DNA from: Lactarius indigo
Taxonomy: Eukaryota > Basidiomycota > Agaricomycetes > Russulales > Russulaceae
Reading direction: 5' to 3'
Length of the DNA: 64,000 nt
Assembly (NCBI GenBank): GCA_025766275.1
Contig: JAFKAC010000026.1
Location: 124,001 to 188,000 of the forward strand
The translations under genes were made by a program, and so were the position numbers. Shown here piece by piece: positions 7,628 through 52,067 of this stretch (position 1 is the first letter of the stretch; every line of letters begins with the position of its first letter). The notes beneath the pieces are model-generated. The model ran no database searches. It had not been told where the DNA came from and saw nothing but the letters and a program-made list of their open reading frames with translations.

Positions 7628-7720
7628 GAGCCCATGACGCAGATTTGGGTCATTGTACTCGGCAGAGCCCACGTGACAATTTCACGAGCGCATTGGCAAA
7701 GCCCACGTGGGCCCATTGTG
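7628..7720 (+). repeat. KDZ-A left terminal inverted repeat (degenerate)
   Basis: It pairs with 51975-52067. Similarity is patchy, but the spacing of the conserved blocks is identical (23 bases between two GCCCAYGTG blocks). The TSD candidate gttgggg lies just outside. Confidence 0.65.
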
Positions 7721-9190
7721 TGACTTAAGCGCATATAGATGTATGGGCCCATGAATATGTATTCTGTATAGGCATCGTATGGGCCAACCAAACACATATA
7801 GGGAAACTGCACAAGGTCCATGTATAGGCCCAGGACAAATGGGGGGTATCTGGCAATGAGCTTGTATTGGCCCAGAATTAAATTGCAATGTCATTGACAA
7901 TATACACGTATGGGCCCATAGGACTGGCATTTGCTGCTGCCGATGCAATTGTAATGGCCCAGGGCAAGCAGGAAAGCTGCCGAACAAGAGCTTTGTGTAG
8001 GCCGACGATGTGCACATAAGACCAAGCTTGTGCTGTTGCCGATGATATTGTGATGGCCCATAGCAGGTGGCGACAGCTGCCGAACATATATCTCGTGTGG
8101 GCCCATGGCAGCCATGTGTATATTCTGCCAACTAGCTTGTATTGGCCTACGATGGTCACTTGTATATTCTGCCGATGAGCTCGCATTGGCCCAATTCAAC
8201 CTATCATGTATCTGACAATATACATGTCTGGGCCCATAGGAAGGCATTTGTGCTACTGCCAATTAGCTCATAATGGCCCGCAGTAGGTAGCGACGGCTGC
8301 CGAACATATATCTCGTGTGGCCCCATGGCAGCCATGTGCGTATTCTGCCAACTAGCTTGTATTGGCCTACGATGGCCACTTGTATATTCTGCCGATGAGC
8401 TCGCATTGGCCCAATTCAACCTATCATGCATCTGACAATATACATGTCTGGGCCCATAGGAAGGCATTTGTGCTACTGCCAATTAGCTCGTAATGGCCCG
8501 CAGTAGGTAGCGACGGCTGCCGAGCATATATCTTGTGTGGGCCCATGGCAGCCATGCGCGTATTCTGCCAACTAGCTTGTATTGGCCTACGATGGCCACT
8601 TGTATATTCTGCCGATGAGCTCGCATTGGCCCAATTCAACCTATCATGCATCTGACAATATACATGTCTGGGCCCATAGGAAGGCATTTGTGCTACTGCC
8701 AATTAGCTCGTAATGGCCCGCAGTAGGTAGCGACGGCTGCCGAGCATATATCTTGTGTGGGCCCATGGCAGCCATGCGCGTATTCTGCCAACTAGCTTGT
8801 ATTGGCCTACGATGGCCACTTGTATATTCTGCCGATGAGCTTGCATTGGCCCAATTCAACCTATCATGCATCTGACAATATACATGTCTGGGCCCATAGG
8901 AAGGCATTTGTGCTACTGCCAATTAGCTCGTAATGGCCCACAGTAGGTAGCGACGGCTGCCGAGCATATATCTCATGTGGGCCCATGGCAGCCATGCATG
9001 TATTCTGCCAACTAGCTTGTATTGGCCTACGATGGCCACTTGTATATTCTGCCGATGAGCTCGCATTCAACCTATCATGTATCTGACAATATGCATGTCT
9101 GGGCCCATAGGAAGGCATTTGTGCTACTGCCAATTAGCTCGTAATGGCCCACAGTAGGTAGCGACGGCTGCCGAACATATATCTCGTGTG
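7700..9190. repeat. KDZ-A left subterminal tandem array, 220-bp unit
   Basis: The landmark tacatgtctg + ggcccatagg recurs at 8221, 8441, 8661 and 8881 (exactly 220 bp apart) and again near 9090 with a 9-bp deletion. Diverged units extend left to about 7700. Each unit contains two CTGCCGA words (followed by gc/ac and by tgag) and several GGGCCCA words. Open frames of about 92 codons recur every 220 bp on the minus strand only because the repeat lacks stops in that frame. They are not genes. Confidence 0.92.
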
Positions 9191-9270
9191 GGCCCATAAT
9201 CGGCATGTATGATTGATGCTGATGAACCTGATTACACTCGCAATAGCCACAGGGTCTACTTGAACTATAG

Positions 9271-10450
9271 TTATGGCATGAGATCATAGCTCTTTCCATC
9301 ATACATGGTATTTAGAGTCTTCTGGCCGTCATGAAGCTGCACAATTTCCTGCCAAAGCATCTCAAGGACCCTCTCATGTGTCTCACATCTCGATTTCAGG
9401 TCCTCAATCATCTTGTCTTGCCCCTCACATCTACTTTTCAGAGCCTGGACCTCTTTTTCTAGGTCTCTGACGACACTATTGTTGTCTTCACCTCGAACTG
9501 ACAGTATGCACGATGAGTGTAAAACCAGATGTAAACTTCAGTGAACACACATGAGATTGCTGGCTCATTGCCTTCCTCCCTGCTTTCATCGGCGTTCTCT
9601 TCTTGGGGCGAAGGCTTGTCCTTTATAAACACTGTCTTGGACTGCTTCCCCTCATCCCTGACATTTGGCCCATCTCCCTTTGGCGGGTTTGTGTGCTTAG
9701 CCATCTTACCCTTGGCTTTATCTCGTAGCCTAGCTACCTTTGAACTACAGGTATTTGGAGTGTCGTGTAGAACCTGCAGGAATAATAGATCTTGGATCTT
9801 TGGGCCAGCTTTATGTTTCAATCCAATCACTTACGTTTCCATTATCTTGTCTCTTTGGCATAGTACCGGTGATTGCTTTAGTACAGTCATCGGCAGCTTT
9901 CTGTTTTTCTGCCGATCTTGTGACAATTTCTTCGGCAGCAATTTTATTTCTCAGTGCATCTGTGGGATAAAATATGGGACTCACTCTGAAGACCGCCACC
10001 AGCAGCACACTGCTGCTTCTTCCCATTGCTAGGAATAGTGACTATTGAATGGTCAACCTCTGTTGAATCGTCTTGAGGTTCAGGTGCCATAGATTCCAGA
10101 ACGGAAGCTGCCGACGGGATACTCATTGCTACATTGCTTACCATCGCCGAACCTTCTTGAAGCTTAGGTACCATACATTCGCCACAGGAAGCTGCCGATG
10201 TAAGTAGAGACCCATGAACATCAGAGAACAGTACCGTACCATTTTGACCAGGTAGATGTATGTCCAGCGGTGGAAGATCTTTGGGTGAAGTATAATAGTT
10301 GCTACTTAACACCTTTGGATTATCCTCAGAGACAGCTCTCATGTTCAGGGAGGTTTCAGACTCGTTGAACATCAAAGCAAGGCTCAATAGGAGTGGGTGA
10401 ACACGGGGAGGTGTGGGACTTCTTGTATTAAAATCAACAAAATAGTTCAT
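9271..10450 (-). CDS. KDZ-A accessory gene A1: Ser-rich protein with C-terminal coiled coil, unknown function
   Basis: This is a multi-exon gene on the minus strand, starting at ATG 10450 (MNYFVDFNTRSPTPPR) with stop TAA at 9271-9273. The N-terminal part is serine-rich and low in complexity. A middle exon carries the helical stretch ALRNKIAAEEIVTRSAEKQK. A Lys-rich segment is followed by a clear 53-bp intron (9498-9550, donor gtgtgt, acceptor ctgtcag), after which the frame continues as a coiled coil with heptads such as DLEKEVQALKSRCEGQDKM, a second DLKSRCE copy, and the end YDGKSYDLMP. I do not recognise the family. It lies inside KDZ-A on the same strand as the transposase, so a role in transposition is possible but unproven. 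The upstream exon joins are approximate. Confidence 0.5.
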
Positions 10451-10789
10451 CGATTCTCTCTAGAAATATCTGAGCTTAGCTTGTAGAAGCAGATGGAAAG
10501 CACACTAGGATACCAAGCGTGCTCTCAATAAATTCTTCCACTTTATTTCATCTTGGTGTGTGCATGTGCGGTATGCTTCTAGCCCATTTTTGAGCATAGC
10601 GGCATGGTGGTGAAGAGTTTGTTCATCTTTGGTTAGACCGAGCATGGATGTTGACATGGAATAGAGCTGGTAGTAGATCCAGGGGGAGGCAGTACAGAGC
10701 GCATATGCAGGTCTGTAATCATGGCCCATGCAGATATATTGTCAACTGTCCTATCAGAGCGTTCGGGTTCTGTCGGCAGCTAGTGTGGG

Positions 10790-11270
10790 TATATAATACA
10801 GGCCATCACAGCATTTCTCCTAGCAGCGTCTGATTGGGCAGCTATGAGTTTATTGCATCACCGGGTAGGCTGCTACAAGCTTATCGGTAGCACCTGACTG
10901 GACCATTCCAAATATATCAAAAGTTGCTGATTGGGCCATGGCAAGCTTATGGCCATTATCTGATTAGGCTGCCGTGAGCTTATCGGCGGCACCTGATTGG
11001 GCTATTGGGCTACCGCAAAGTTTATCGGCATCACCTAATTAGGCTGGTGCAAGTTTATGGGCAGCACCTGATTGGGCCATTGTAATTTTATCGGTAGCAC
11101 TTGATTGGGCCACTGCAACTTGATCAGCAGCAACAGGTTTATGGGCAGCAACTGATAGGCCACCGCGAGCTTATCGGCGGCACCTGATTGGGCCATTGTA
11201 AGTTTATCGGCAGAAACTTATTGGGTCACTGCGAGCTTATCGGCAGCACCTGATTGTGTCGCTGAAACAT
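10790..11270. repeat. KDZ-A degenerate about 40-bp tandem repeat
   Basis: About ten diverged copies of a unit like gagcttatcggcagcacctg followed by attgggccactgc. Many copies keep TATCGGC(A/G)GCACCTGATTGGGC. It carries the KDZ-A signature word TCGGCAG in several copies and mutated forms (tcggcgg, tcggtag) in others. No coding potential was recognised. The preceding stretch 10451-10789 is plain intergenic sequence. Confidence 0.75.
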
Positions 11271-11285
11271 GCTTCCATCTACCAT

Positions 11286-11781
11286 GCAGGGAAACGATTC
11301 AGAGATACAAAAGCATGTCTCTGAGTTAGAGGAGAACAACTTTAAGGAGGCAGTGTGTGGATCAAACTAATGCCTAACCAGGGCACTAAACCAATGCCTG
11401 TAGATGTGCTCTGAATTCTGGAAGGGTGTTTCATTCCTCAGTGAAACAGATTCTGATGCAGGTCGACATCAGAGGGAAATGACAGGGCCCTCCAACGGAG
11501 GTTTTAGTGAGGTCCCAAAAAATGTGGTGCTCTTACAACCTGTGATTCAAAAGCTCATAGATAAGGTGATTTGGAATGTCATCTGATCTGCCGAAGCTAA
11601 CACAACACAGGACCCTCCAAAGGGTGTTTCTGCGGAATGGCTTTCAAAAGCCAGATCTAATGCTGGCTTCCTGAAAAAGTGGAAGGTGATAAGGAAAGAA
11701 AAATTGGAAGACCTTTTGAGTGATTTGGAAAATGAGATGGTTTTGGTAGATGTCTTAGCAGGGGGGGATGGAAAACTGTAG
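11286..11781 (+). pseudogene. Possible decayed coding remnant in KDZ-A
   Basis: Plus-strand pieces look protein-like but do not join into one frame: MQGNDSEIQKHVSELEENNF at 11286, then a segment with GVSFLSETDSDAGRHQREMT, and a charged helical end (WKVIRKEKLEDLLSDLENEM) before TAG near 11781. No family is recognised. It could be an unspliced small gene or a relic. Confidence 0.25.
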
Positions 11782-11816
11782 TTGATTTTCACGAAGACAT
11801 AGAAATATAATTCTCA

Positions 11817-12494
11817 TTAACCCATGTTTTCTTCCAAACGAGAGGCCTCTCCCTCAAGACTCTCAAAACCATTGGAGATCGTATTGTAAAGGGAATTAAC
11901 CTGGTTCTCAATTTCCTTGACCAGTTCCTGTGCTTCTTTGAATTTCCCTACTATTCTAGCGCGAAGTTGCGTGCTAGCTTCCTGCTACAGCACTGGTTAA
12001 TTTGAGGATCAGTAAATGAAACGAGGTACATACCATCTCTAGAGCACGCAGCAACCCCACTACTACCTCCTCACGGACATCGAATGGTTCTTTCATTGTC
12101 TCCCCTTCAAATTTCCACCACTCTGTAAAATTAAATTGAGGAATGCCAGCTGCCTGGAACATTCCCTCTAGCTGCTGGTTTGCTTCGGGAGCCATATAGG
12201 ACCCTGGGTTCCTAATGTCTGAAAACCCACGAAAGGCAATCCTGACCGACTCTGGCACTTGAGGGGAGCTGCCGCTAGACGACAGAAGGCCAATAATCCA
12301 TACAGCAGCAAGCTAAGTCCAATTTCTGGTGAAAAGATATTCCTAGCACATTGAGTAATGCTTACCACTTCCTTGTGTAAGCTGCCGATATAGTTTTTGT
12401 CAATATCGGCAGGTTTGAGAAGGATAATGGATATTCTCTGGCCAATGTAGGCGAGTGCAGCGTCTAGTATGGAGGTGCTGATTTCAGTGGACAT
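11817..12494 (-). CDS. KDZ-A accessory gene A2: small helical/coiled-coil protein, unknown function
   Basis: Three exons read cleanly on the minus strand. Exon 1 starts at ATG 12494 (MSTEISTSILDAALAYIGQR) and ends ...LHKEV before a gtaagc donor. Exon 2 starts LAAVWIIGLLSSSGSSPQVP and contains FNFTEWWKFEGE and a helical end GLLRALEM before a gtatgt donor. Exon 3 starts EASTQLRARIVGKFKEAQEL and ends LEENMG with TAA at 11817-11819. All joins keep frame without stops. The protein of about 175 aa is acidic, with predicted helices and a coiled coil at the end. It lies about 500 bp downstream of the transposase on the same strand. The family is not recognised. Confidence 0.6.
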
Positions 12495-12992
12495 GGTATG
12501 CGGATGTGAATTGATGCGCAAATGGAATGGAATCTCTATGCTTAAGAAGCTGCCTTCGGGAGCTGCCGATGAGTGCTGATGATCTTAAGTGAGTATACGC
12601 CCATGCTGCATCATGCACATGACTCCGAGACATCTCCATTTGAAGTTTCTGTTGCTTGTGTGAGGAAATGCCTGTGGCACATGCCTGTCACAAGCCCATA
12701 TATCGGCAGCCCTCCCGCCAGCTATGTGCTAATAGAATGTCGTTAGCAGAGACCCTTCACGGGCAGCCCAAGCCACAAACACCTACCGGTGACTCATGGC
12801 TAGCTGCAGTGAAGCAAAACATCCAATCTGTTTCCCTTTATAGAGATAACTCTGACTTTCCGTTGGAGACTATATAGCAGGCCTAATTGTAAATGAGGGA
12901 ATGAAACAGATTTATTTCTAAAGGAATTGTAGTTTTAAGCTCCCACTGACTACCGATAGCTAATCGGCAGCGCTATGCGAAAGTTATTAAAC
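12495..12992. other. Intergenic DNA of KDZ-A with signature words
   Basis: No gene was seen. Exact CTGCCGA/TCGGCAG words occur near 12561, 12703 and 12964. The stretch separates the transposase stop from gene A2 and probably contains the A2 promoter. Confidence 0.5.
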
Positions 12993-15900
12993 TCATCTAC
13001 TTGGTTGCAGCCGTAGAACTTTAGCAAACTCAGGAGGCGGATTACTCCTGAGTAAAGCAGTAAACCTGGACTCTGCCTGAATAGCCATCGAGCACCACAT
13101 TGCACTCTGTTTGGCTGCCCACGCAGCATGCCCTGACTGTGACTGGGGCTCAAGGAGCTCCTGCTTTGCTTGCCAAAATTGCTCTTGATGCCTAAAAAAC
13201 CTGACAGCGGACTCCATCTCAACTTGAAGACACTGAAGTTCTTCTATCCATCGCATCTTTTGAGCTTTTGCCCGAAGCCAATGTACTCGGTAGACTGTAT
13301 AGAGCGTTATATTGTTTGAGTGTGTGTGAACAGAGAGCTACGCACAGTCTTCCATCCATTCCCCAATGTCGGCATCTCTCTGAATGTCCATTGTCCAAAA
13401 CCAGGGCAATGATTTATTCCGCTGGCCACGTACATGAGGGGCAATTACACTTGTCTTGACACTCAAGTCCTGGCGCCTCAAGACTTTGTATCGATCAAGG
13501 AGAGAGGTGCCGGCTCCAAGGTTTACCATTGCCTGCCGGGCACGAATATACACCCGGGCATGATGCTGAACTGTTGACTCGGCAGCATGTACTTCTGCCC
13601 AAGCGCGTGTTTTGAGTCTTTGTGTACGTGCCGGACGAACATCCTGTCTGAACAGATAAGATTTGTGGCCTAGGGAGATGCAAATGTGATGTAGGGAATC
13701 GTTCAGTTGTCCCTCCCGTAGATGTATTTCTGCCTTCGCCAGGGCTTCGGCAGAATTTCCATCACACCAGTCACGTCCAAGATGTGAAGGAAGATGCAAC
13801 GAGATATACTCTGCATCCACACTGCCATTGGTAGAGCAATTTCCTGGAAACTCCATTTGATCATGTTCTTCGGCAGATGAAGTGCAATCCTCATCGTCTT
13901 CTCCTTCATCAGTGCCATCAAATTCTACACCAATATAGGTTTCTCTTCTTGGGGCATTGTCCCAGTAGTCATCTCCGCTGTTGTGGGGGTCTTGAAGAAT
14001 GTTAGCTGCCTGCTTTTGGAATGCGTCAACTCTTTCTTGGAGTCGGGCACGCTTCAAGGTAATATCCCTCTGTTGATCTGGTGTTGGATGGGATCCAATC
14101 TTCCTCACCAGTGCTTGAAGGGATAACCTATGTTTTTTGTGAAATCACGATCAGATGTCTCACTGGAGAAGGTGCTGAGAATCCTACTGTGACTCCTGAA
14201 TCTTCAATCCACTGCTAAGCCATACAGCATGTCCCTTATGGCTAGAGCCCTCAGTCTCCTTCTGTGTCAATTCAAGAAGTATCTCTGCACGCGATGGGAC
14301 TGAAACCTGATGTCAGGCAAACATATCATAGAGTAATTGTACCCACATTGTTTCCTCTTGATGTCATAGATGTCCATGACTTTGACGTCATGACCTCGCT
14401 CCCTTTGTGCATACTCCTCTTCGGCGCTCCAAGCCTCAACACTCTCCGTACTTGCCGATACATTTATGGACTCAAATGCTGCCGTGCTGATTGTGGCTCC
14501 CGAAAGTGCCTTTCGGTAGCGTCTAGACACAGCATTGACTACCCAACCCACGTAAGCACTGATGTGGTATCTGTAGGAGGGAACTTGCCTAGGTCAATAA
14601 GCTTCTTCCAATTTGAGTCATTCATATGGTCATCTATGACCTCCCTGCGATGCGATGTTGACATCCCCCTCGTACTTCTGGAGATCTCATTGAGTGGAGC
14701 CCAAAATGTTTCGATGGTCTCGCCATCTATTTGTCGGCCTCCTTTGATGAAGCTGGGCGAATACCTAGCTAGGCAGGTATCTTGATGCCCATGGATATGA
14801 AAAAGACCAATGCCCAACCTGAGCTCCAGGCCGTCAGGAAGTTTGAGATAGTTGCTGCCGATAACCCTCTCCTTCATATGAACACTCCATTGACACATGA
14901 CATCATAGCAGATGAGGGCGGCCTCTATCCCCTCCATATTGAAGTTTAGGGCCTTGAATATGGAATAGTCCATATTCTTCTGGCTTTTGGAGGGTTGATT
15001 TTCACTCATTGTATGCAGATAGATATAAGAACTCACGCTTCTCCCTTTTGAAAGTCAACAACAGAATCGGGCACAAAAGCCCCATGAATGCACGCAGTGG
15101 CACCAATTCCAGTCGATTCAAGGTGTCCGCTGTGCTTGTTTACATTATTTACTGCACGGTGGTCATGGCATGTCGATCTCTGCTCAAGTGTCAACCCTCC
15201 CCTGCCGAAATACCAGAGATAGTGCTTACCTGCCGCCTCTCAACTGCCGATTTCAGGTGCAATTCATATGACTTTTGACTGACCATGAATCCTGTACCTT
15301 CAGAGAGTGGAATGTCATTCTCGGGATTCCTCATCTTCATGTGCTCTGCCTGGAAGTTCCCATCCATCATGAAGCCCCGCATGAAAAGGGTTTTGCTAAA
15401 GTAATATGTCGGCAGTTACTAGGTACCGAAGACTATTGACACACCTATTTTCAAACTCTCTCCAATCCTCGGGGAGGTTGATTCCAGGTTGTGCACACAA
15501 AGCACAGAATATAGCTGTTGATCCCGGCTTCTGTTCTTCATTCTCCCCATACCCGAAACCGAATCTCTTCTGGGAAATGAGTACTCTCCACTGCCGGGAG
15601 ACCCTCAGCAGCTCCCGATATCGGTCCTAAAGCTGCCGATTAGTCTGCTATCGGCAGATGTGCTAAGTTCTCTTACCGGCACTGAATTTGGAAACTCATC
15701 ATTTGTGAGTCTCCTTAGGCGACTGAAAAATTGGCTTGGAGTCGTCTTGCATTCAAGATTGTCCAAATGGAAGTCTTCTAGCACCCGGAAGGTAAATGCT
15801 GTCTTTGGGTTGCGAAATGTGGCTGGAAAGAGCCCTGCCATCATCAACTGCATGTCGTGCTCGGGAGCTTCAGGGCAGAAGCACCAGCTGACGCCAATCT

Positions 15901-16736
15901 CGTGGATTCCAGACCTATCAATGACAGTTATTATTTGATTTCCCTCTTTATCATGACGCCCAGGTTTTGGACTGTCGAAGCCAAGGTCGGCAGCTGCATG
16001 ATACTCTCTGTGGCTACCGACCTGGCAGTCTTCGTCGGCATCATAGCACCTCTGTGACTGTATTTTTTGGAATGAGATTTAAAAAATAAAAGGGTTGGCA
16101 ACACACACTTTGAATTGGGCACAAATCCCCAGAGTGCCCAAGACGCAAGCATATCCCAACCTCCCGCAACCACGACGGCATGAAGTATTTCCCTGTCCAC
16201 TTCTGAACCCTGTGGAACGGAAGCCGGTTATGTGATTTTCGGCAGCACTCCTTGCAGAGCACCAGAGCAGGGAAGCAGTTGGTACATCTCCACTCAAATG
16301 GGGCAGACATGCAGCCCTGGCACATTGTCATAGCTGGGACACCCTCAGAGTTGAGGAGGCAACGCAAGTAGGGGCCAATCCTAGGAATAAATTCTTCCAT
16401 GTATATGTGCTGGGACTGGGAGAACATGTAAAATACTATTGGAGAAGGGCATGGATGCAAACCCACTCTCGTCTGTTCAGGTATGAATGGCTCCTCTATC
16501 CAGATTGTCTCATCAACATCCATGGACGCAGGGTCGGTTTCATCCAATATTGCCCCATGGTTGTCTATCTCCATTCTGCCAGCATCTTGTCTTGGTGTCG
16601 GCAGATTTGTTGAGGTGCCTACTTCTACCGGGATATTTCTGGTTCCTCGGGAGCCTTCTCGGGACACCCACTCAATCACCTTAGCCTTAGACTTTCTGTG
16701 GAGGAATTTGGATGCCTTCACACCCTTGCGTGCCAT
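12993..16736 (-). CDS. KDZ transposase of element A (multi-exon)
   Basis: This KDZ-superfamily transposase reads on minus from ATG 16736 (MARKGVKASKFLHRKSKAKV) to a stop at 12993. The N-terminal region is basic and acidic, followed by a CxC2 zinc cluster: CQGC (about 16311-16322), WRCTNC, LCKECC, PFHRVQKW, and LGHSGDLCP (about 16120-16145). The catalytic core contains DGNFQAEHM (about 15360), the block after MDYSIFKALN with YDVMCQW (about 14900), GIGLFHIHGHQDTC (about 14800), and DGETIETFWAPLNEIS (about 14710). The C-terminal block is NKSLPWFW...VHWLRAKAQ. This matches KDZ-B's transposase block by block. Exons are separated by short introns, and I see no certain disabling lesion. By family it should cut and rejoin DNA at the terminal repeats. 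The exact splice sites were not all resolved. Confidence 0.88.
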
Positions 16737-17458
16737 GGGAAACTAAGAATGGATGTGTCGTGTGTTGCAGTATATGTCCCTGAAGAAGCAGCACCTCCAA
16801 TTAACCTGTCGGCAGCTTTGGCTGGCTGGGTATTGCGTCTGTGGATTTTGCGGTCCAGACTTGACCTGTGGTCACTCACGCTACTGTCGGTAGCTTAGAT
16901 AAACCAGGTTTGGCAGCCAATCAAACCACTTTGTGCTGTTAAACTGGACTGGACTGGACCTGTGGTCACTTACACTACTATCGGCAACTACTTAAACCAC
17001 TTCAGGCTGTTCTCTCATGTAGCACATATTTTATCTATTGTATATGACATGAGATACCCTTTGATAGCATGTTGCTTCGTTCATCCTCAACTGTGAAGCA
17101 CAAATTTGGGGTCAACAGTTCTGTTTATGCAAAAGTGTGCCTTCTCAAGGTACCTGGCAGCAGTGTCTGTCATTATTTTAGGGTTTCTACCATTTGGTTG
17201 ATTGGTAGCTACTGAAAGTGTACTAGACCATATTACCATCTCGGCAGCCTCGGCAATATAACACAGAGATAACACAGATGCCGTCTGTCTTGACAAAAAA
17301 CAAGATATTTCTCTTGTGATTGAGACAAGGCTTGATAGTATGGTCTCTAGGAGTGTGACATGAGTACACCCCATTAAGATGGCAAACAGTTTGACTTGGC
17401 TGAGGGACAATTACCAGGAATTATCGCTCCAGAGACATTTACTGATCTACCGAAAAAC
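16737..17458. other. KDZ-A intergenic DNA with a diverged direct repeat
   Basis: Two similar stretches, around 16855-16940 and 16935-17025, share acttgacctgtggtcact-like sequence, followed by CTACTGTCGG or CTACTATCGG and then an aaccac...gctgtt block. This makes a degenerate duplication of about 80 bp. A 107-codon minus-strand open frame (17087-17410) has no recognisable domain. The upstream promoter of the transposase is expected just right of 16736. Confidence 0.45.
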
Positions 17459-31160: not shown

Positions 31161-31193
<33 letters not shown>

Positions 31194-38130: not shown

Positions 38131-38337
38131 ACTGAGTTGTCCTCGACGGAAATACTCATGTGGTTTCCGGAATGGATAAGTCAACAGCCACAGGTTCTTA
38201 AATTTATACAAAGGTATCACTGTATCACTAATTGCCTCTCTGAAGGTATGTTGGATCCAGTCCACCTGAACCCCTGCCAATATCTACATTCCTTTATAAT
38301 GATCAGATCACACAGTATATGTCTTTACTGTGCTTAC

Positions 38338-40945: not shown

Positions 40946-41249
40946 CCTTAGATGAGACGGAAGTGATATTACTGTGGACGCTGTGGACAGAAGTGATACG
41001 CCCTCAGATGGAAGTGATGTTTCATCGGATGGGAGTGATACTTCCTGAGACGGAAGTGATGCTTCCTTGTACAATAGAATGTGCTTCCTCTGATGGCGGA
41101 AACATTCGCCATGGGATCCATTCATAACCTTAGTTGTGTATGTCTCACTCATCCACACATATGTTTGAGATATTTACTGGTACATAGAAAGTGTGCGAGC
41201 TCGTTTCAAATACATGTGTGTTTCTCAGTACAGACTCCTTGTAACTACG

Positions 41250-42582
41250 TCACTTGTCCCGGCCACTGGTCTTGTAAATCCCATCCCTAATATATGAGAG
41301 ATCAGAATAGAGGTCCATTACGACGCCCATGAGTATCGTGCATCTCTCCATGAGATCCCCAGAGTGATCGGATGGGTCAAGCGAAAGCAGCCCCCTGTAG
41401 GCAGCAGGGAAATGGCGCCCGGATGCGACATGCGGATATGGTGCCCTGGCCACCTATGGGAGAGTGTAAATGTCAGGAAACCGCAATCGACAAGACACCA
41501 CTCACATATGCAATAGGTATAAGATTACTCTCAGGAATACTTATTATTTCCTCTTCAGGTGGACTGGAATCGGTATCCATCTTCTCCCCACTGTGAGAAC
41601 CTTCCACCGACCGTGGGCTATCAGGAACGCGTGCTGTAGGAGGGGCCGTAACGTCCTCTACGTCGATGGGAACGGACATAACGCTCCGTCCCTGTATTGG
41701 ACTATCTGGTAGCTCAGGGGTTTCATGGACCTGTGATCTGTCAAGAATGGCAACTGCCTCAGGTCTATCAGTTACATCTTCCTCGTGGATTACGGGTTCC
41801 GTGTGTACGACTTCCTGCAAGATGTCACCAGTGCCCTCTTCCGCCGGACCTGTAGAACCATGGGATTCTTGCATTGTTGGAAGCGTTCCGGGACTGCGTG
41901 CTGTTTCCTGTGACCCGTCGGAAACGGCTGCGACGCCAAGGGTGGATGTTGTCTGGGTGTATGTGACTCAAAACAACTCGCCATGAATGTATGCCATCTT
42001 GGGACTTACAATGCTCTGAGCTATGTCAAGGACATCGGCTATCTCTGGATCCGCCGCTTCCTGTAGCTCACAAGAAGGTCCTGCAGCCTGCGAAGCTGCT
42101 GTAACCCGCAACGGGTCAGTGGCGGGTTCCGGCTCAGATGCAGGCGCATCCGGGGTGTCCTGTCTCAGTGTCGCCTTCCGCCTATGGAGGAAGGCGGTAC
42201 GGCGGGCATGGTGAGTTGGTGGAGACGGATCGGACTCAGTGGGCTCCACTAGTATTGTCGTTGACACATCCGTTGTGTTCTGCGGTAAATGAGAGTCGTT
42301 TGTGATGGAGGGGAAGATGGGGCATACCACTGGCGAAGGCAAGGAAGGTGCTACGGAAGTTTCGATTGTAGCAGGAGGCACAGCAGTAGCCGGACTGCGC
42401 TTCTTGAGGAAGCGGTAGCGTGTGGAAGGCCGCGCCTCTACTGTGGAAGATGGTGTGGCCTGTCCGGGTTCTGAAGGATGGCCAGATGATATCGTAGAGA
42501 GTGGGGGTCCATGCCCGGATGGATCGCCCTCAGTGGAATGCTGTCCGGATTGCACACGGGAAGGGGGAGGGCGTGGAGGCAT
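41250..42582 (-). CDS. KDZ-B gene B2: long disordered Pro/Ser/Thr-rich protein, unknown function
   Basis: Minus-strand gene, likely start ATG 42582 (MPPRPPPSRVQSGQHSTEGD); an in-frame ATG also exists at 42666. The first exon is rich in Pro, Ser and Thr with basic patches (RYRFLKKR, RRTAFLHRRKATLR), ending ...LDIAQS near a donor gtaagt at 42010. The second exon is acidic (MDTDSSPPEEEIISIPESN) and ends ...IAY. A 50-bp intron ending tcccatag leads to a folded-looking end VARAPYPHVASGRHFPAAYR, with DLMERCTILMGVVMDLYSDL and stop at 41250. I do not recognise the family. It is the only gene in KDZ-B for which I found no counterpart in KDZ-A. Confidence 0.5.
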
Positions 42583-43107
42583 CTTTCCAACGTATGCCCA
42601 TTGACCTGGAAGCCCCTGTTTCAGTATAAATAATTTACCAACTAGGGTCGGACCTGTATGCGACATTCTCTACTGATCTATGGGCTGTAGGTGATTCTAC
42701 AGTGGTGGGTTTCAAAATGCGCGTCGACTATGTCATCAAAAATGTCTTCTGATACATTTCTAGCAGACCTATACAATATGATGCTAGTGTACTAGGGCCT
42801 CGACTCTGCACTCCAGGCCTTGGATTGCCGATAGGCTTCTGAATGATGCAAGACATCAATAGTCGACACACGAGGCGAGGCCATGTGATCATTATTGTCC
42901 GAAATTCGGATAAGTTGTCTGAAACTGTCGGATGCCATCGGGTTCCATCGGGTTCCATCGGGTTCCATCAGGTTCCATCAGATCCTATCTAGCTCCATTC
43001 GGAAACTGGTCGTCGGGCATGGGAGGCTTCCCACGAGCAACGGAAAATACTGCGTGTCCGTCCCCCCCTCCCTGTAGTCCGTTTCCGCACATTCCCTCGC
43101 TTCCACT
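42583..43107. other. KDZ-B intergenic DNA with a 12-bp microsatellite
   Basis: Divergent spacer between gene B2 and the zinc-cluster gene. At 42932-42985 the unit ggttccatcggg is repeated about four times with decay. No gene was seen. It should contain promoters for both flanking genes. Confidence 0.5.
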
Positions 43108-44962
43108 ATGCCCCCACAGCGCAGGATTTATGTGGACAAACTTACTGCAGATGAAAAAGCACTGATGGGGACTGCAATCCGCTTCGACCTTGCGCTCAGG
43201 TATAGGGAGAAGAACCTCGATTCTGTGGACGACGATTGGTACAGGACATGCATTGCTTCGGAATTGGTAAGTGCTAGTATCTGTTAATATATTGAACTGT
43301 ACACCAATTACTACATAGGACGATGTAAATGAGATATTCGGGAAGTATTCAGATGGAAATACTGAGCCGCGTATGCACCCAATAATCACATATGTTGCTG
43401 AAGAATGGGATAGCGCTGCGGACAACTCCAGGGTGCCGGATATCACTGCACTCAAGCTTGAAGACGTTTCCAAGCTATGCGATGAAAGCGCAGCAGCTAA
43501 CCCATCGTGGAATACCCAGCTTAATATGAAGACGCTTAACGCACTCATTGGGCTTCTGAATCCCTCAGATCGGTGGTGGCTTCCGGCTCTACGATCAGAT
43601 GTGGATGATGTTCCAGGTATGTTATACGTCTTCCTCTCACTCCCGGAACAGCTAATTCCATTTTCCAGACACACCCCACGTAACGCCACCTAGGGCGGGG
43701 TCCAAAGCATCCGGAAAGCGTCCCGCGCCACCCCCTCCTGATACGGGTTCTGACAGCGGTGCAGAACCATCCGGTCCAGTTCCCGCATCCGTTCAGGATG
43801 CTACCACGGTCAATGAGGACGTTGAGATGCATGAGGACGATGGGGGAGAAACGCCGTGCAAGCCGAAGAAGGCCACAAAGCGTGTCGCGGTCCAGTCCCC
43901 CACAGCAGCTCATCGCACTACCCGCCGCCGGCGCACAACTACTGGCGCAGGCGACGTCCCTTCTTCTCCAGAGCCGGAGCCTACGAAACTCATTCCCGTG
44001 CGCCCAGTCCCCATGGAACCAGTGTCCGGTGTCCCTCCGCACGCTGCTGTTCCCACGCGCACAAAACCCATTAATGTGACCATCGTGAGTTCTGACGAGG
44101 CTGATGATCCACAGGGATCTCGTCGATCTCGTCGACGACGTCTAAGTGTCGTTGACGATTCCGCCTCGGAACTGGAAACTGGGCCGCCGGATCTGGTAAG
44201 TCCCTCATGGCTCTATTCCTGTTTCCGTACTCACAGTGTGCTACAGCGCGCATGTGGCCCTTGCAAGGCTGCAAACCACAAATGCAAGCCACAACCCGCC
44301 GGGAGGAAGGGAACAGCATGCAGGTGGTGTACAAAGCGGAGGCACAAGTGTGTCCCCCGCCCTCAGTGGGTGGTGACGGGGAAAGAGGATGGGAAAGGGA
44401 AGAAAAAACAATCACTCGGTGCGTTCCCATTTGTCTGATATCATTGTATTATGCTAACGGACCCACAGACGAAGTCGTGCAGAGGCTGGACGACATGTGC
44501 AACACGCAAGAGGCCCACATTGCGGCCATGCGCGACTTCGTGCACAATACGGACGTTATCCTACGTGCCTTGTGTACCCAAGGACCGGGCAATGTTAATA
44601 TGTCGACCCTACGCCTCCGGACGCCTGCTGTTCCGCTTTTCACGGAGCCTGGACCTTCCACACCCAGCGCGTCCTCTGTTGCCAGTGGAACCAGTGGCGC
44701 CCCCTCAACAGTTTCCAGCATGGGGCTTGGTCGTATGATGATCAGCGATGCGGGTGTCGCTGGCCCTTCCGAAGTCCCACCCGACCGCCCACAGGCCCCA
44801 GGTACGTCGGATATTGCACCTACATTTCCCGGATGCATATTCATATCTTCCGCCTTCGTAGTATCTCGCCAGGGTCTCCGTAATCGCTCAAGTCGTGCGG
44901 GGACCTCTAGTGGTGCACAGTCGAGGGTCGGGTCGCGCCAATTGTCTCGCGGACGTACCTGA
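43108..44962 (+). CDS. KDZ-B Zn2Cys6 zinc-cluster protein with coiled coil
   Basis: Starts at ATG 43108 (MPPQRRIYVDKLTADEKALM), and exon 1 ends ...CIASEL before gtaagt. Exon 2 holds a folded N-terminal region ending NPSDRWWLPALRSDVDDV, matching the RWW...L block of the KDZ-A protein. A disordered, basic exon follows (RRSRRRRLSVVDD). The next exon opens with ACGPCKAANHKC, then an 11-residue loop, then CRWCTKRRHKC (44253-44351): C-x2-C-x6-C-x11-C-x2-C-x6-C, the Zn(II)2Cys6 pattern. After another intron comes a coiled coil (VVQRLDDMCNTQEAHIAAMR), then a Ser/Pro-rich tail ending SRQLSRGRT (stop 44960-44962). It reads on the transposase strand, as in KDZ-A. It is probably an element-encoded DNA-binding factor, by inference. 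Confidence 0.7.
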
Positions 44963-45907
44963 ATATAGTATAACATTTGTTCTATCTACTTTTGTCTCGT
45001 ATTACCCCATGTACAGTATGCCATATATTTCCAGGGCTTCGAATCTCACATTCCTATCTTGATTCCTATGCACTCTATGTCGCTTATATGAGTCGCGGGT
45101 TATATCCGGGACGTTTCCGAAACTTTCAAAGCGCGGAAAATATGGAATCTGCATTGGGGGTCACGAGTGCATCACGGATCCTGCTGCACGTATCCGGGAG
45201 TCACGGATGTGTGACTGGATGTTTCCAGGCACTCTCACAACAGCGTTATCCCAGTGTTTGAATGCGTATTGGTGTCGCGGGTGACGCGGTGACGTCTGGG
45301 ACATTTCCGAAGCTTTCCAAGCATGGCACATATGGACTACGCATATGTGGATCATGAATGCATCACGGGATACTATCACAGGAAAGTTCCGGAAAGGTTT
45401 CCGGGCACATTACGGGACGGTCCTGAAACAGTTTGCCCATGCCCCATATTGGGCACATACATGGGAGTCACAGGCGCGCTGTAGGAGGTTTCCATAACCT
45501 TCCTAACACACTCCATACACGCTCCATACAAAGGATGTATATGTGGATAATGGGTATATGTGGGTCATGGGCACGTCACAAGCAAGATCATGGAAGGTCT
45601 TGAAACATTCTGGACATGCAGAACCTCCCAGTGGGAGGGTTCGGACTATTCAACCAGTGAAATATATTCTGTATCTGTTGCATGCAGGAAACATGTGAGT
45701 AGGCCATGTTTTGGAATATGGATTGGCATGTGTAGTATGATTGGAATGACAGGCAGCGTCCTGTTTGGAGGGGTATGAGGTGTGTTGTGACATCTCTAAT
45801 CATTATCTACCTAGACAGTAGGTTATAGCGTGGATTTGCTTAAGTACAGCATGTATAGTTTTGTGTCCATCCACTCCTGTACTACCTCACCCCATATCTA
45901 ACCTCGC
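44963..45907. repeat. KDZ-B intergenic region with two diverged copies of a repeat
   Basis: The stretches at about 45105-45190 and 45293-45375 share (c/t)gggac(g/a)tttccgaa(a/g)cttt, then a (g)gcac/gaatgcatcacgg(g/a)at block. Words built on CACGG, TCCGGG and TTCCGGAA are frequent. No coding sequence was recognised. Confidence 0.5.
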
Positions 45908-46432
45908 ATGTCTGACATCCAGAAGGCATCAAAGGAGAAGGATATTGATATGTCCATAAAGGATGTCCATCTTACCTTTACCGGGACCTATACTGGGATT
46001 TCCGATCCAGAAGATGATGCTTCATCTGGTCTGGAATCCTTTGATGAAGATGATATGTATGGATCGGACAATGGAGACGACATCATTTGCAATATTCCCG
46101 ACACAGATGAAGAATCACAGGAACTTGAACATTCCTTGGATAGGGTATGTCCTCCACCCCACTCCCGACTTTCGGAGATCTCATGTGTTACCCAGCTCAA
46201 TGAGCTCATTAATGCTTCCCAAAGTCTGTGTGTCGACCTTGAGAACATCTATATTCTGGCAGTGGAATTGTACAATATTTGGAACAGGGGAGATGTGTCT
46301 GAGCATGATTCCCAGCAGAGTTCAGATCCCTTGTCTGTCCTGCATAGGTCAGATGTACTAGAGGTGGAGGCACATGGTAGGGATATCGAAGCGGAAGTAG
46401 AAGGAGCCTCCACTGGCGGATTTAGTAAATAG
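45908..46432 (+). CDS. KDZ-B small acidic protein, unknown function
   Basis: Single-exon frame of 174 codons, ATG 45908 (MSDIQKASKEKDIDMSIKDV) to TAG at 46430-46432. The first half is strongly acidic (SFDEDDMYGSDNGDDIIC, TDEESQELEHSLD). The second half has a helical segment, ISCVTQLNELINASQSLCVD followed by LENIYILAVELYNIWN, typical of an amphipathic coil. It lies about 260 bp upstream of the transposase on the same strand, in a place comparable to the small coil genes next to transposase A. No family is recognised. A short intron cannot be excluded. Confidence 0.5.
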   Translation: MSDIQKASKEKDIDMSIKDVHLTFTGTYTGISDPEDDASSGLESFDEDDMYGSDNGDDIICNIPDTDEESQELEHSLDRVCPPPHSRLSEISCVTQLNELINASQSLCVDLENIYILAVELYNIWNRGDVSEHDSQQSSDPLSVLHRSDVLEVEAHGRDIEAEVEGASTGGFSK

Positions 46433-46693
46433 TGATATGCAGGATGCAATGGCCCACATCTGATAATCCAGTATGCATTGTTCGGATATTGTAGAACTCC
46501 GGATGGCCTAGAATACTATGAAACCGCTGATTTTTATGATCCCTGATGTATCCCCTACAAGGGAACATCTGTAGAATATTCCGCAACTCATTTCTGCAGT
46601 ATGCACAGGGTATTTAAGACAACATCCAAATCATACAAAGACACCCAGCTTCATCATCTCTATACACATTTCCTATCCACTGCTATACAGGAA

Positions 46694-49600
46694 ATGCCTC
46701 GCACTCGTGATGTTATCATTCCTGAAACTGTTGAAGGCATCGAGGAGGTCGTCATCAAGCACACCAAATCGAAGCGTGGTACAATCCGGACAACGGAAAA
46801 GGTTGTTCCCGTTGTCTGTCCACAGAAGGAGCGATCCGGACAGACTTCACGGGCACGCCGGAAGGATGCACACCCGCAGATTCCATCAGCTAGTGTCAAA
46901 GGTTCTGGGGGGCCTCTCCACATCCATGAAGACCCGCAGATGGACCCATACACGGAAGAGCAACAGTATGACTTCCACAATACAGAAGAGGATGGTCAGC
47001 TACAACCCGACTCAACTGCCACCCAACAGGCCACTGTATGTCTCACATTTATTCATATCATGTAGCTATCCTGATCAGATGTAGACTCCAATGAAACAGT
47101 GGGTGGAGCTCAGGGATAGATATCTCCATGTTCTCCTGGAGATGGAAGGTCGGGGAAAATCTGACAAGTGTTCCATGTGCAGCAAGAAACCTGAAATAAA
47201 GTGTCCGAATTGCTTTGGACCACTGTTGTTTTGCAAGGACTGTTGTCTTGAAGCTCACAGGAACTCCCCATTTCACAGACCACTACTATGGAATGCAACC
47301 CACTACACTCCAGTAACTCTGCACTCCCTCGGATTTGTATTGTGCATTGGGCATGGTGGTATGCCATGTCCACGAACAGTTGAGGTAGTTATGGACACAC
47401 ATATCTTACAATGTCTTGTAGTGCTCATATTACCTTAGGGAATCAGAGCTGCACAAGCAGTCTCCACTAGTAGAAAGAGGAGTTCCGGGAAGAGACGTGC
47501 CCACTCAGCATCTCTTGCATCTGTTTCCGAGGGTCCTGATTCTCCAGATAATTCTGGCCAACTTCCTACACCTCGCGAGACTCCACAGCCAGAAGGCCCA
47601 TCCACTAATCCGGATATCTCTGACAGACTCTTTGACTCCCTGGATATGTCTCTGGATTCTAATGACAGTGATTCCAGCAGAGTGCGGACAGCGGACTCTG
47701 GTAATCCACTGTTCACTGTTGTTGACAGAAGTGGAATCTTCGACATGGAGGTAGTATTCTGCATTTGCCCAGGAATGGACAATATTGGCGAGCAGCTTCT
47801 CCAATCCGGGCTATTTCCATCCACATTCCGGCAAATAGAAACATTGTTCACATTCACAGTATTGGAGGACTTCATTCTGGATAACCTGGAATGCAAGACC
47901 ACAGCCCAGCAGTATTATTCAAAGCTGCAAAGCATGACAAGCAAGATGTTTCCCAACAATGTGCAAGTATGTCTTCATCCATACATACACACACTCCCAT
48001 CCACCCACACCCAGATCTAATAAATGTTTACAGAACCGTTACAAGCAACTTCTGAGAGCATCTCGCCAGTGGCGTGACCTCAAGGCCAGGATGGAAAGTG
48101 GGCTTGGACATCAGTCGGAAGGAGAGAGCTGTCCAGATGGAGCCATGGCAATATTCTGCCCTGCATGCCCACAGCCTGGAATCAATCTTCCTAAGGATTG
48201 GAAGACACTATATCCTCCGTATGTCATTTATGAACTGGCATCTCCACATACTCATACTCCCCATTGAAGTGACCAGCTTATCCAGACATTTATCATGGAC
48301 GGAAACTTTTCCGCAGAACACATGCGCCATAGATCCGGGGACAAGGATGTTGCATTATCAGCAGGAATGGCATTCATGGCCAACCCTGATTCCTACAAGG
48401 CTCATCTCCAGTGCGGAAAAGAAATAGCCCAAGTATGTGATGTCTTCCTTACCCAGATCCTTTTATCTAATGGCCTTATAGCCCAGCACATGTAATACCT
48501 ACAGAGCCATTGAACAGGCAAATTCTAGTAGGACACACCTTGATGTCACAGGGATTGGTGCAACTGCCTGCTGCCATGGGTTCTTTGTTCCAACATCTGT
48601 GGTAGATTTCCAGAAAGGAGAGAGGTATGAATGTTCTCTTGGAATCCCTATATCCGGAAGTGATGTACCATTTCCGATAGGCAAATCAATATGGACTACA
48701 GCATATGCAAAGCACTCTCATACAATATGGAGGACATCCCTGTGGCTCTTGTCATGTATGACATCATGTGCCAATATAGAGTCCACTTCCAGGAGAGGGT
48801 CAAATGCAGTCCAGAACTCTCACTACCAAGCTCACTGACACTCCGGATGGGAATTGGACTGTTCCATATCCATGGGCACCAGGATTCTTGCTTGCCAAGG
48901 TTTTCTCCCAGCTACATTCCAGGAGCAAAGCAGGTTGATGGAGAAATAATCGAGACCTTGTGGGCACCCCTGAATAATATCTCTCGCAGCATCCGAGGGA
49001 TGTCCTTGGACCATAGGCAGGAGGTATTGGATTCCCACATCAATTACTCCAACTGGAAGAAGCTGGTTAGGATTGGTATGTATTATCCATCCGGACTATC
49101 CCATATGTTAATACAACACTAATGACACTTGTATGTGAAAGTCCCATCACTACTAAAGTGGTGGAAGCGACTGGACTCTGGCTTGGATGCCAGTGCAAAG
49201 GCATATAAGGCACTCAATCAACACTTCAAGCATAAATCTGAACAATGGCTGAAGGATGATGAGGGTGCTCAACAGGAGAGACAAAAAACCCCATCTTCCA
49301 TGGATATCTATGACACTGTGAAGGAAAAGGGTGTGTGGTCTGAATCCGAAATTATCCACCCATAATTGATGAATGTCTCCAGCCCCATCCCGGGCTGCTA
49401 TCCAGCAACAGCTTACTGAGGAAGAGAGCAGGGACCATTCCATCCAGGGTGAGACATCTTGGATTTCATGTGGCCTTAAGATACAGGAATTACAGTATGT
49501 CCACAAGGATCCTTCCTAATTCATTGAATAATGACCTACCCAGACTTGCAATCCGCTATCAGCTCCGGAGTCAGGGATCAAAGCTCACTATAGAAGATTC

Positions 49601-50633
49601 ACAAGTCCTTGAGAATAAGCGCAATCGCATACAGAAGCTTATTGATATGTTTGAGCACCAGGCAGACACCTTCCTACACCATCATCAGGATACAGATGAT
49701 GTTCCGGTATGGTCTATGGGGGACTATGCTGAATATGACAATGTGGATGACATAGATGGCTCCGGAAATCCTGGCCTTGGACCTTCTCGCCATTACCATG
49801 GAGCCCTGACCTCTGATGGCTCAGGAATGGAAAGTTCCAATGTTGAGGACATTCCCCTCCTTCTTCCATCATCCCTTGGATGGGAGTGGTGTTCAAGCCA
49901 TGGTATCAAGTCTCTTGCAATGAAGGAAGCTAAGCTACGCTATGCTCAGGCAAATGATTCCATCCACAGGATCCGCCTTGCATTAGGGTTCAAGTCTGCA
50001 CTCTTCCGAACACAAGTGCGGGATGCCCGTACACAAAAGACAAAGACCCGTGCATGGACTGCAGTTCATGGTGTTGATAGCACAGTCCATGAGCATGCCC
50101 GGAACTATTGCATGGCACGGGATGCATACCTCAGGGTCCAGGAAGAATCCGGAGACTTTCCGGAATTACCACCCCTCCACCCCACAGATCTTCGCATCAG
50201 CACAACCATCCTTGGAGCAGCACAGGTGGGACAACGCAATAAACAGCTCCCATGGATATGGAGCTTTGGGGTCTCTGAAAGGCATGATGGAACTTGGATG
50301 GATGAGTGTAGGCCAACATCCATTGCCATATGATGAATGCTTACAGATATTTCAGTTAACCGAGTCCATTGGCTTCGTGCAAAAGCTCAGTTTGAGAGGT
50401 GGAAGGAAGAACAACACAGTATTCATAATGAAGCCATATGGATTCCAGCTTACTTTCATTCCAAGGCAGAGCATTGGAAGACCAGGATGGATATGGCAGC
50501 ACAGGTGCTGCTTCCTGGCCATGAAGCATATGCATCTCGCCAAGCACATGCATGGGAGGAACTATCTAGGAGTTCTGTAAAGGCACTAATCCCAATCACC
50601 TCTTCTCCATTAAAACATTTAGAGACTATGTAA
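46694..50633 (+). CDS. KDZ transposase of element B (multi-exon, apparently intact)
   Basis: Starts at ATG 46694 (MPRTRDVIIPETVEGIEEVV) and ends at TAA near 50633. The N-terminal exon is basic and charged. The CxC2 cluster follows in the next exon: CSMC, KCPNC, LFCKDCCLEAH, SPFHRPLLWN and LCIGHGGMPCP (47165-47390). Core blocks are RSGIFDMEVVFCICPGM, TVLEDFILDNLECKTTAQQY, MDGNFSAEHM (about 48295), STCNTYRAIEQANSS joined by an intron, DYSICKALSYN with YDIMCQY (about 48757), GIGLFHIHGHQDSCLPRFSP (about 48855) and DGEIIETLWAPLNNIS (about 48940). The last blocks are RNKQLPWIWSF and VHWLRAKAQFERWKEEQHS. Conserved Asp/Asp/Glu in DGNF, YDIMC and DGEIIE are likely catalytic. Short introns separate the exons, and all inspected joins stay open. 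It should mobilise the element via its TIRs. Confidence 0.9.
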
Positions 50634-50639
50634 AGGTGT

Positions 50640-51258
50640 ATCCTAGTTCTGATCTATTCCCATAAACTGTAAATCAATGATATCACTCCACTTATTTCAT
50701 GTATCACAATGGAAGGCAATCTCTACATTACAGGAATTACAAGGGAAGTGATGCTTCCATCATAGATAACTCATGGAAGTTGGTTATTATGTTATTTCTT
50801 GGATTCCGGAAAGCCACTGAAGGTGATTTTGGTAAGTTAAACGGAAAGCTAAGACTTCCACTCCTGGAAGTGACACAAGTTTTGATTCCTCCATTTCTGG
50901 AAATAATGTGTGTTAGGATTTCTGTTCAGGAAACACATGTATTGATTTCCGCATTTCGGGAAAATGACACGGGTGTTAATTCTTCCGTTCGGAAATGATA
51001 GGGTTTTGATTCCCCATTTCCGGAAATTATTTGGGTTTTGATTTCCTGTTTCCGGAAATGATACGGGTTTTGATTTCCCCATTTCCGGAAATGATATGGG
51101 TTTTGATTTCCCCGTTTCCGGAAATGATACGGGTTTTGATTTCCCCGTTTACGGAAATTATTTGGGTTTTTATTCTCCCGGAATGGGAGAATGACATGGG
51201 TCCATCTCAGGAAATAACACAGGTGTTACATCTTATGTTCTGAGAATGGGTTTTGGTA
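50640..51258. repeat. KDZ-B right subterminal repeat: palindromic ATTTCCGGAAAT units
   Basis: Between about 51000 and 51180, a unit near 36 bp (gggttttgatttccccattt + ccggaaatgatac) is repeated about five times, each with the palindrome atttccggaaat. Looser versions (ttcagg, ttccgg) extend back to about 50750. No gene lies here. Confidence 0.85.
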
Positions 51259-51543
51259 CTCCCATTTCAGGAAATAACATGGGTCATGATTCCTCCATTT
51301 CAGGAAATAAATGAGTGTTTATTCATCTGTTTCGGGAAATGACCCGGAAATCTGATTCTTCCATTATAGAAGGAAATATTGCTACTTCCTTTAGCAATTC
51401 CTACATCGGAACCGACGTCAGGTGGCCCATAAATTCCAGAAGAATTTTGTGCGTCGGCCGACGTCGGTTGGCCCATGAGTTATGAGGGGTTCTTCCCATC
51501 GGATGGCCCATGAATGATGAAAGTCATGGCAGATCATTATGTG
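51259..51543 (-). repeat. KDZ-B right terminal inverted repeat
   Basis: Inverted partner of 36396-36679, about 90% identical by eye. Its outer end reads (inward) cacataatgatctgccatga. The TSD ctagctg follows at 51544-51550. Confidence 0.92.
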
Positions 51544-51550
51544 CTAGCTG

Positions 51551-51990
51551 TGCCAATTGGCCCATCCATTTATCTCGGCAGTTCGATCCATGGGCCCATG
51601 TGGTTTCACCAATGTAATTGGTCAATTTACACCCTGCCTGATCATGGGCCCACTCAAGATGTTTGGCAGGTCTTTGTAGGCTCAACAATGGGCCCATTCT
51701 AATATATTGACAACTCTTCCTAGCTGTGCCAATTGGCCCATCCATTTATCTTGGCAGTTCGATCCATGGGCCCATGTGGTTTCACCAATGTAATAGGTCA
51801 ATTTATACTATGCCTTGATTGTGGGCCCACTCAATGTGTTTGGCAGCTCTCAATGAGTTTAACCATGGGCCCACTGTATACTATTGACAAAACTTCCCAG
51901 CTACTACAATTGGCCCATTCATTTATCTTGGCAGTTCTATCCATGGGCCCACTCATGATATATGCTCACTCTTGCTTGATGGGCCCACAT
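51551..51990. repeat. Continuation of the KDZ-A 212-bp array after KDZ-B
   Basis: Resumes with tgccaattggcccatccatt in register with the interrupted unit. It holds about two and a half diverged or shortened units, which lack the central catcacatatgcccctcttac segment. Confidence 0.9.
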
Positions 51991-52067
51991 GGGTTTCAAC
52001 AACCTGTAAGGTCTATATGCACATGGGCTTTTACATACACATTGTCACTAACTTGCGCCATTATGTG
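51975..52067 (-). repeat. KDZ-A right terminal inverted repeat (degenerate)
   Basis: Read inward from 52067 it begins cacataatggcgcaagttag, sharing cacataatg with KDZ-B's right terminus and block spacing with 7628-7720. The next bases gttgggga match the left flank gttgggg. Confidence 0.65.

Follow-up and report, generated by a model that had tools for sequence, protein, structure and literature searches.

Nested KDZ elements and a word confined to one of them

We analysed a window of 64 kb (positions 124001-188000 of a contig) from the genome assembly of Lactarius indigo (90.3 Mb, 291 contigs). The window contains two nested Kyakuja (KDZ) transposons, KDZ-A and KDZ-B, each with the KDZ transposase domain, a CxC cluster and a 7-bp target-site duplication. 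KDZ-A (minus strand, 7628..52067 in window positions) is flanked by the duplication GTTGGGG at 7628/52067 and is split by a gypsy element (20552-28204) and by KDZ-B (plus strand, 36396..51543), which has its own duplication, CTAGCTG. Once the nested elements are removed, KDZ-A consists of three pieces (7628-20551, 28205-36395 and 51544-52067) with a total length of 21,639 nucleotides (nt). Its domains according to Pfam are KDZ transposase, CxC2 and Tet_JBP, while KDZ-B has a CxC2 domain and a match to PF18758 at 48673-49053.

An earlier note on this DNA, whose gypsy and Copia labels we adopt, had counted by eye about fifty copies of the word TCGGCAG (complement CTGCCGA) outside the tandem arrays of KDZ-A, on both strands and in coding as well as noncoding sequence, and had noticed none in the nested and Copia-like elements. 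Exact counts agree on each point. The window has 87 copies, every one within the KDZ-A pieces, and none in the left flank, the right flank, the gypsy element or KDZ-B. Two Copia-like open reading frames (ORFs; 1105-5436 and 54916-59235) are inside the word-free flanks. The two comparisons on which the note had staked its idea, with the flanks and with the genome, both set KDZ-A apart: the word's density is ~4,000/Mb in the element (87 in 21,639 nt), compared to zero in the flanks and ~160/Mb across the genome (14,431 copies in 90.3 Mb; the reversed word has 8,828).

Outside the arrays, 54 copies occur in 16,557 nt, where dinucleotide frequencies predict 1.66; the remaining 33 of the 87 are located in masked repeat stretches or in the right-hand tail. 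When the word and all other 7-mers were counted against shuffled sequence, as the note had proposed, TCGGCAG averaged 1.5 copies (maximum 6) in 300 dinucleotide shuffles of non-array KDZ-A, and the top 7-mer of any kind in any shuffle reached 16. In the actual sequence, TCGGCAG is the most frequent 7-mer. The 54 dispersed copies are divided 27:27 between the strands, and are found both in the half of KDZ-A with the transposase and TET genes (9198..20551, both strands, in ORFs and outside) and in the accessory-gene half (28205..33562, both strands). They are as dense within the examined ORFs, which are open reading frames and not verified gene models (24 in 5,540 nt), as outside them (30 in 11,017 nt), and those for transposase, TET and zinc cluster taken by themselves have 14 in 3,712 nt.

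The dispersed word is followed by C in 38 of 54 cases and then by T in 31 of 54. Apart from these trailing bases, the surrounding sequence is unrelated from copy to copy, so they did not spread by duplication of longer segments. A variant, TCGGTAG, is also enriched in KDZ-A (11 versus 0.4 in scaled background). The spacing of the dispersed words exhibits no regularity (coefficient of variation 1.4) in an analysis that did not exhaustively search for fixed or paired sites; the places listed with two close words number 32.

Other KDZ families have their own words

A search of the genome for KDZ families, in which 150 of 250 candidates were scored, gave at least 175 matches, and we took 12 further KDZ stretches, or 14 with the window elements KDZ-A (family F1) and KDZ-B (family F5). 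Repeated contexts were collapsed, the stretches include some flanking DNA, and the survey covers this one genome. A blind test for 6-mers was run on 10 of the 14 stretches, the window elements among them. The top 6-mer contains CGG in seven of the ten stretches, with scores from 18.5 to 136; simulated sequence did not exceed 8.7, and the two flanks and the gypsy element scored 7.1 to 10.9. CGG or CCG is present in ~11% of all 6-mers.

Six KDZ families are saturated with such words. The top 6-mers are TCGGCA in F1 (KDZ-A) and CGGCAG in F2, two sister families that share TCGGCAG; TCGGAC in F3; ACGGAA in F4; CGGAAA in F5 (KDZ-B) and in F12, which is of the same family; and AAGCGG in F6. In KDZ-B, CGGAAA/TTTCCG appears in 50 distinct contexts where 5.4 are expected. 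The bases flanking CGG are typical of the family in the elements, but flat in background. The top 6-mer lacks CGG in F7, F13 (a mosaic) and F11.

Several of the stretches that we had numbered as families are not separate. By blastn, the match of F8, F10 and F15 is F6, that of F9 is F1, and that of both F11 and F12 is F5; we do not treat them as independent. Among stretches outside the blind test, F8 is led by AAGCGG (19 versus 2.3) and F9 by TCGGCA (14 versus 2.9), while F10 is led by CGCGCA, followed by AAGCGG, and F15 is without a CGG word.

We also found a third, more distant TET-carrying relative (L001, G000:C112:436258-439273), which is 67% identical to F2 over ~1 kb. It has seven instances of TCGG(C/T)AG in 3,016 nt, and F1, F2 and L001 have a TCGGTAG in common at one aligned position.

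Conservation and turnover of the word

F1 and F2 can be aligned over 9,919 columns with 76% identity. Nineteen of the 34 words of F1 recur unchanged in F2, whereas a matched local control of CpG-containing 7-mers has a mean of 5.0 and a maximum of 14 in 20,000 draws. The reverse comparison gives a similar result (19/33 F2 words kept in F1, control 5.0). There is also turnover: for 15 F1 and 14 F2 words, the partner family has a different sequence at the aligned place, although at least one such pair (F1 4282, F2 950) may reflect an alignment slip. Third codon positions of the F1 and F2 ORFs are identical in 31/35 cases inside words and 820/1,196 outside (P=0.006), in counts that were summed by hand, leave out the TET ORF (which has no word) and the Zn2Cys6 ORF (which is outside the aligned blocks), and include a 38-nt overlap twice.

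Between families with different words, the picture is otherwise. Summed over nine comparisons, 4/67 words are conserved, compared to 424/3,369 control places, and F4 words kept in F5 account for three of those four; the words of these two families resemble each other. Given that 19/34 words are conserved where 5 are expected, while other words are private to one family, the word looks selected. We consider it very probable that it is a selected, family-typical DNA site. The earlier note's suggestion of element-wide recognition sites is supported by the conservation, strand balance and family specificity of the words.

A candidate zinc-cluster reader

The earlier note had offered three proteins of the element as readers of the word, namely a zinc-cluster protein, the transposase and the TET/JBP enzyme. 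KDZ-A has a Zn2Cys6-like ORF (minus strand, 30404..31096) that starts with CX2CX6CX7CX2CX6C and holds five words; it is our candidate reader. The corresponding candidate for CGGAAA in KDZ-B is a Zn2Cys6-like ORF (plus strand, 43656..44438) with CX2CX6CX11CX2CX6C from 44253; this ORF has no Pfam match at E up to 10. We found six-cysteine clusters in F1, F2, F3, F4, F5, F6, F11 and F12, as well as a frame-broken cluster in F7. In F8, F9, F10, F13 and F15, the fetched sequence yielded no in-frame cluster. Among blind-test stretches with an in-frame cluster, 7/8 have a top 6-mer with CGG.

The six cysteines are invariant in 7/7 aligned sequences from six families. The spacing CX2CX6CXnCX2CX6C is exact in F1, F2, F4 and F5, while in F3 and F6 the first loop has 7 residues. 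The clusters of F1 and F2 are of a short-loop type followed by SLMP.N.KTGK, and both families use TCGGCAG. Those of F4 and F5 share CGPCK...HKCKP, and their words are ACGGAA and CGGAAA. This accompaniment of similar words by similar clusters, in F1/F2 and in F4/F5, supports a pairing of cluster and word.

CGG is the classic half-site of Zn2Cys6 proteins. Because the words of all six families contain CGG and all six families carry a six-cysteine cluster, the zinc cluster is the best of the three proposed readers. We infer that the zinc-cluster protein binds the word, and rate the cluster as the probable reader. The clusters themselves are best called Zn2Cys6-like, in that the evidence for membership in this class is weak.

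CpG decay and the TET gene

Eighteen F1 copies (3.4 kb each) have changes at 153/3,726 CpG cells but only 23/52,806 cells at other positions, a ~94-fold difference, and all 153 CpG changes are C to T on either strand. In 12 F2 copies, which appear to comprise two subgroups, the figures are 155/3,192 and 165/37,015 (~11-fold), and 6/155 CpG changes are not C to T. These cells are not independent, as the copies are related, and strongly diverged stretches of L008, L016, L018, L019 and L022 were excluded. The CpG-biased decay is likely a trace of CpG methylation. Such decay erodes a CpG-containing word, which means that something must maintain it. The copies behind the pattern are L005-L020, L026 and L033.

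CpGs in words changed in 8/366 cells in F1 and 16/312 in F2, compared to 145/3,360 and 139/2,880 for other CpGs. Pooled, this is 24/678 versus 284/6,240 (P=0.28), which is not significant, so special protection of word CpGs is not supported.

We used 133 transposase places from the matches listed, which we labelled by family ourselves (21 F1, 19 F2 and 93 other). A TET match is within 25 kb of 20/21 F1 and 17/19 F2 places but only 6/93 others, and within 6 kb of 17 F1, 16 F2 and 0 of 93 other places. Conversely, 37 of the genome's 39 TET/JBP matches have a transposase place of F1 or F2 no more than 25 kb away. Families without TET nearby still have words, and therefore words exist without TET. 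Nonetheless, the TET enzyme could be recruited via the candidate word-binding protein.

The TET stretch of KDZ-A, between the words at 17241 and 20057, has no exact word and is the longest word-free gap when nested elements are set aside. The aligned block of its F2 counterpart has words at 6250 and 7263 of the fetched F2 stretch.

Subterminal arrays and end sequences

Both ends of KDZ-A have tandem arrays in which the words point outward. The left array (8053..9197) has 5.2 units of 220 bp with 11 words, all on the minus strand, and the right array (33864..36403) has 12 units of 211 bp with 16 words, all on the plus strand; a tail of the right array continues past KDZ-B (51544-52067). Both arrays also contain a second word, TGGGCCCA. 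In F1, it is nearly restricted to the outer parts of the element, and the F2 array is rich in it. The array units of F1 and F2 align weakly (at best 74% over 58 bp), which makes a distant common descent possible, yet both carry TCGGCAG and TGGGCCCA.

KDZ-A has 138 copies of GGGCCCA/TGGGCCC, and all but two of them (136) are in its first 4 kb or its last 2 kb. In L059 there are 61 copies, 60 of them around an array (L059:3815-5237) that adjoins sequence 98% identical to F2. Three copies of ATGGGCC are near each end of KDZ-B. Being end-weighted and shared across families, TGGGCCCA appears to be a better fit to a transposase site than the interior word.

Comparison with known systems

The closest parallel known to us among short motifs is the VANC system of Arabidopsis VANDAL elements, for which the portions of PMC5735166 that we draw on describe demonstrated motif binding and loss of methylation, different motifs for the targets of VANC21 and VANC6, and a proposed co-evolution of protein and motif. 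As in that system, the KDZ motif is dense in its own DNA-transposon family, differs in related families (apart from F1 and F2, which share theirs) and is in many cases located in tandem repeats; here, the reader is a candidate. VANC21 motifs, according to the same portions, are mainly non-coding, have the same orientation and are proposed to accumulate by tandem repeat formation. The KDZ words depart from this pattern: most are single copies in unrelated contexts, the strands are balanced, 24/54 dispersed words are in ORFs at a density equal to that outside, and the arrays hold a minority. In addition, the KDZ elements reside in a fungal host, have a Zn2Cys6-like protein as candidate reader and, in two families, carry TET.

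The KDZ transposase, TET/JBP gene and 7-bp target-site duplications are also features of the TET-carrying Kyakuja elements of Agaricomycetes, whose host orders include Russulales in the text of PMC12730594 that we consulted. In the main text of that paper, the terms “tandem repeat”, “subterminal”, “binding site” and “zinc” appear 0 times. Among the matches listed in a search of titles and abstract openings, which did not extend to the original KDZ paper (Iyer 2014), none reports such words in KDZ elements.

A likeness to Gal4-type Zn2Cys6 proteins lies in the CX2CX6C...CX2CX6C pattern of F1, F2, F4 and F5 and in the CGG of the words. The Zn2Cys6 protein Pho7 footprints an asymmetric site containing TCGGAC, which is the F3 word, and altering the CG of this site abolishes binding (PMC5559640, in the part used here). 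However, Pho7 and Gal4 regulate host promoters, while the KDZ clusters are divergent, with a first loop of 7 residues in F3 and F6.

TnpA of the maize En/Spm element is encoded by the element, binds repeated subterminal motifs and is linked to demethylation. Unlike these subterminal motifs, the KDZ words span the whole element, including its ORFs.

Interpretation

We propose that the word is a family-specific self-recognition site that is read by the element's own zinc-cluster protein and may serve anti-silencing in the manner of VANC; we put the probability of this statement as a whole at roughly 57%. Each KDZ family would encode a small DNA-binding protein of its own, with a zinc cluster, and selection would have distributed the CGG-containing site of this protein over the full length of the element, within ORFs as well, and in further copies in the subterminal arrays. 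Once bound, the protein would coat the element's DNA and so mark the element as self. Its likeliest job would be family-specific anti-silencing, which would keep the element open, and in the TET-carrying F1 and F2 it might bring the dioxygenase to the element. The arrays may also help to assemble a transposition complex at the ends. As the purpose of the word, anti-silencing is a tentative choice, at somewhat less than even odds. We are more doubtful of an element-wide address code, in which each family or sister pair would have a private CGG word and its own reader, the reader would steer TET to word-bearing DNA alone, and word and reader would change together in new families.

Several observations weigh against our proposal. 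Conservation above control is significant solely for F1/F2; F5 to F12 (26/35, control 69%) and F6 to F7 (2/9, control 22%) match their controls, and F4 to F5 kept 3/7 words although the family words differ. CGG as such is not raised in the elements (~11 to 25/kb, versus 20/kb in background). F11 has an in-frame cluster, yet its top 6-mer, TGGAAG, lacks CGG, as do those of F7 and F13; F7, as stated above, has a frame-broken cluster, no cluster was found in the fetched F13 stretch, and we read TGGAAG as a CpG-decayed form. The KDZ-A Zn2Cys6-like ORF matches the Pfam family Zn_clus with E=0.033 and 14.7 bits, below the cut-off of 21. Zn_clus is matched by 3/7 cluster members (best E=0.015), but equally many match the unrelated DUF1660 (best 0.046). 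A profile search of the PDB gave six matches, headed without significance by LAC9 (E of 0.26) and LEU3 (0.3), with a cytochrome in third place. The AlphaFold model of the cluster is poor (predicted local distance difference test score 49.7), with two short helices, and the two lysines by which Gal4 contacts CGG are not conserved in the clusters of F1 and F5. Moreover, because the zinc cluster is inherited jointly with the transposase, co-variation with the word cannot fully separate the two. The lack of significant protection of word CpGs belongs here as well.

An alternative idea is that the word is a site for the transposase or a transposition complex, comparable to the En/Spm sites for TnpA, with its interior spread a side effect. 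The outward-pointing words in the arrays at both ends, and their presence in the F2 array, are what such a site would lead one to expect. We nevertheless regard it as unlikely, and the transposase as a less fitting reader than the zinc cluster: interior words are equally dense in ORFs and outside, transposase regions can be aligned (~65-81%) across families whose words differ, and TGGGCCCA in the outer parts of F1 and the F2 array, together with ATGGGCC at the KDZ-B ends, is a better candidate for this role. Recruitment of a transcription factor encoded by the host, such as a Zn2Cys6 activator, for expression across the element would account for the CGG core and for words on both strands and outside ORFs. 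Given that different words per family within one genome would require several host factors, and that words within ORFs would be unusual for promoter sites, we find this improbable.

Less probable again is the note's suggestion of a CpG methylation mark in the word that the element's TET/JBP enzyme directly reads or erases. Every word has a CpG, and F1, F2 and the TET-carrying L001 share TCGG(C/T)AG, but the CpG follows from CGG, families without TET within 6 kb also have words, and word CpGs decay like others. An artefact of base composition, codon use or duplicated segments is very improbable. It could draw on the 33/87 copies in repeat stretches or the array tail, but the shuffles, the flat flanks of the 54 dispersed copies, their presence in ORFs and outside, and the conservation above local control all oppose it, and it would need a mutational process that makes family-typical CGG words despite CpG decay.

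A 2025 survey speculates that transposon-borne TETs of mushrooms act without target specificity (PMC12730594, in the part of its text used here). With a family-typical word and a candidate reader in the same element, TET targeting can be tested by a simple binding assay. If our proposal of a self-recognition word is true, KDZ elements would represent an independent fungal analogue of VANC anti-silencing in plants, one that uses a different DNA-binding domain and reaches into exons. They would also provide a natural panel of zinc-cluster proteins with binding sites that are readable from element sequence.

Other features of the window elements

We now note remaining properties of the two elements. 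The KDZ transposase core ORF of KDZ-A (minus strand, 14539..15054; PF18758, E=2.2e-31) has a single word, at 14855, which is kept in F2. The ORF with the CxC2 cysteine cluster (minus strand, 15605..16078; PF18803, E=3.8e-26) has three words, while the TET/JBP dioxygenase ORF (minus strand, 18725..19282; PF12851, E=1e-17) is without an exact word. With regard to the 5'-CA..TG-3' termini of Kyakuja elements, KDZ-B reads CA inward on both sides (CA..TG), and in KDZ-A one end reads CA and the opposite one GA.

An accessory ORF of KDZ-A (plus strand, 29279..30163) has four words and a relative in KDZ-B (minus strand, 38338-39330). Neither ORF has a significant match in Pfam. Their proteins are 30% identical over 82 residues (BLASTP E=2e-9).

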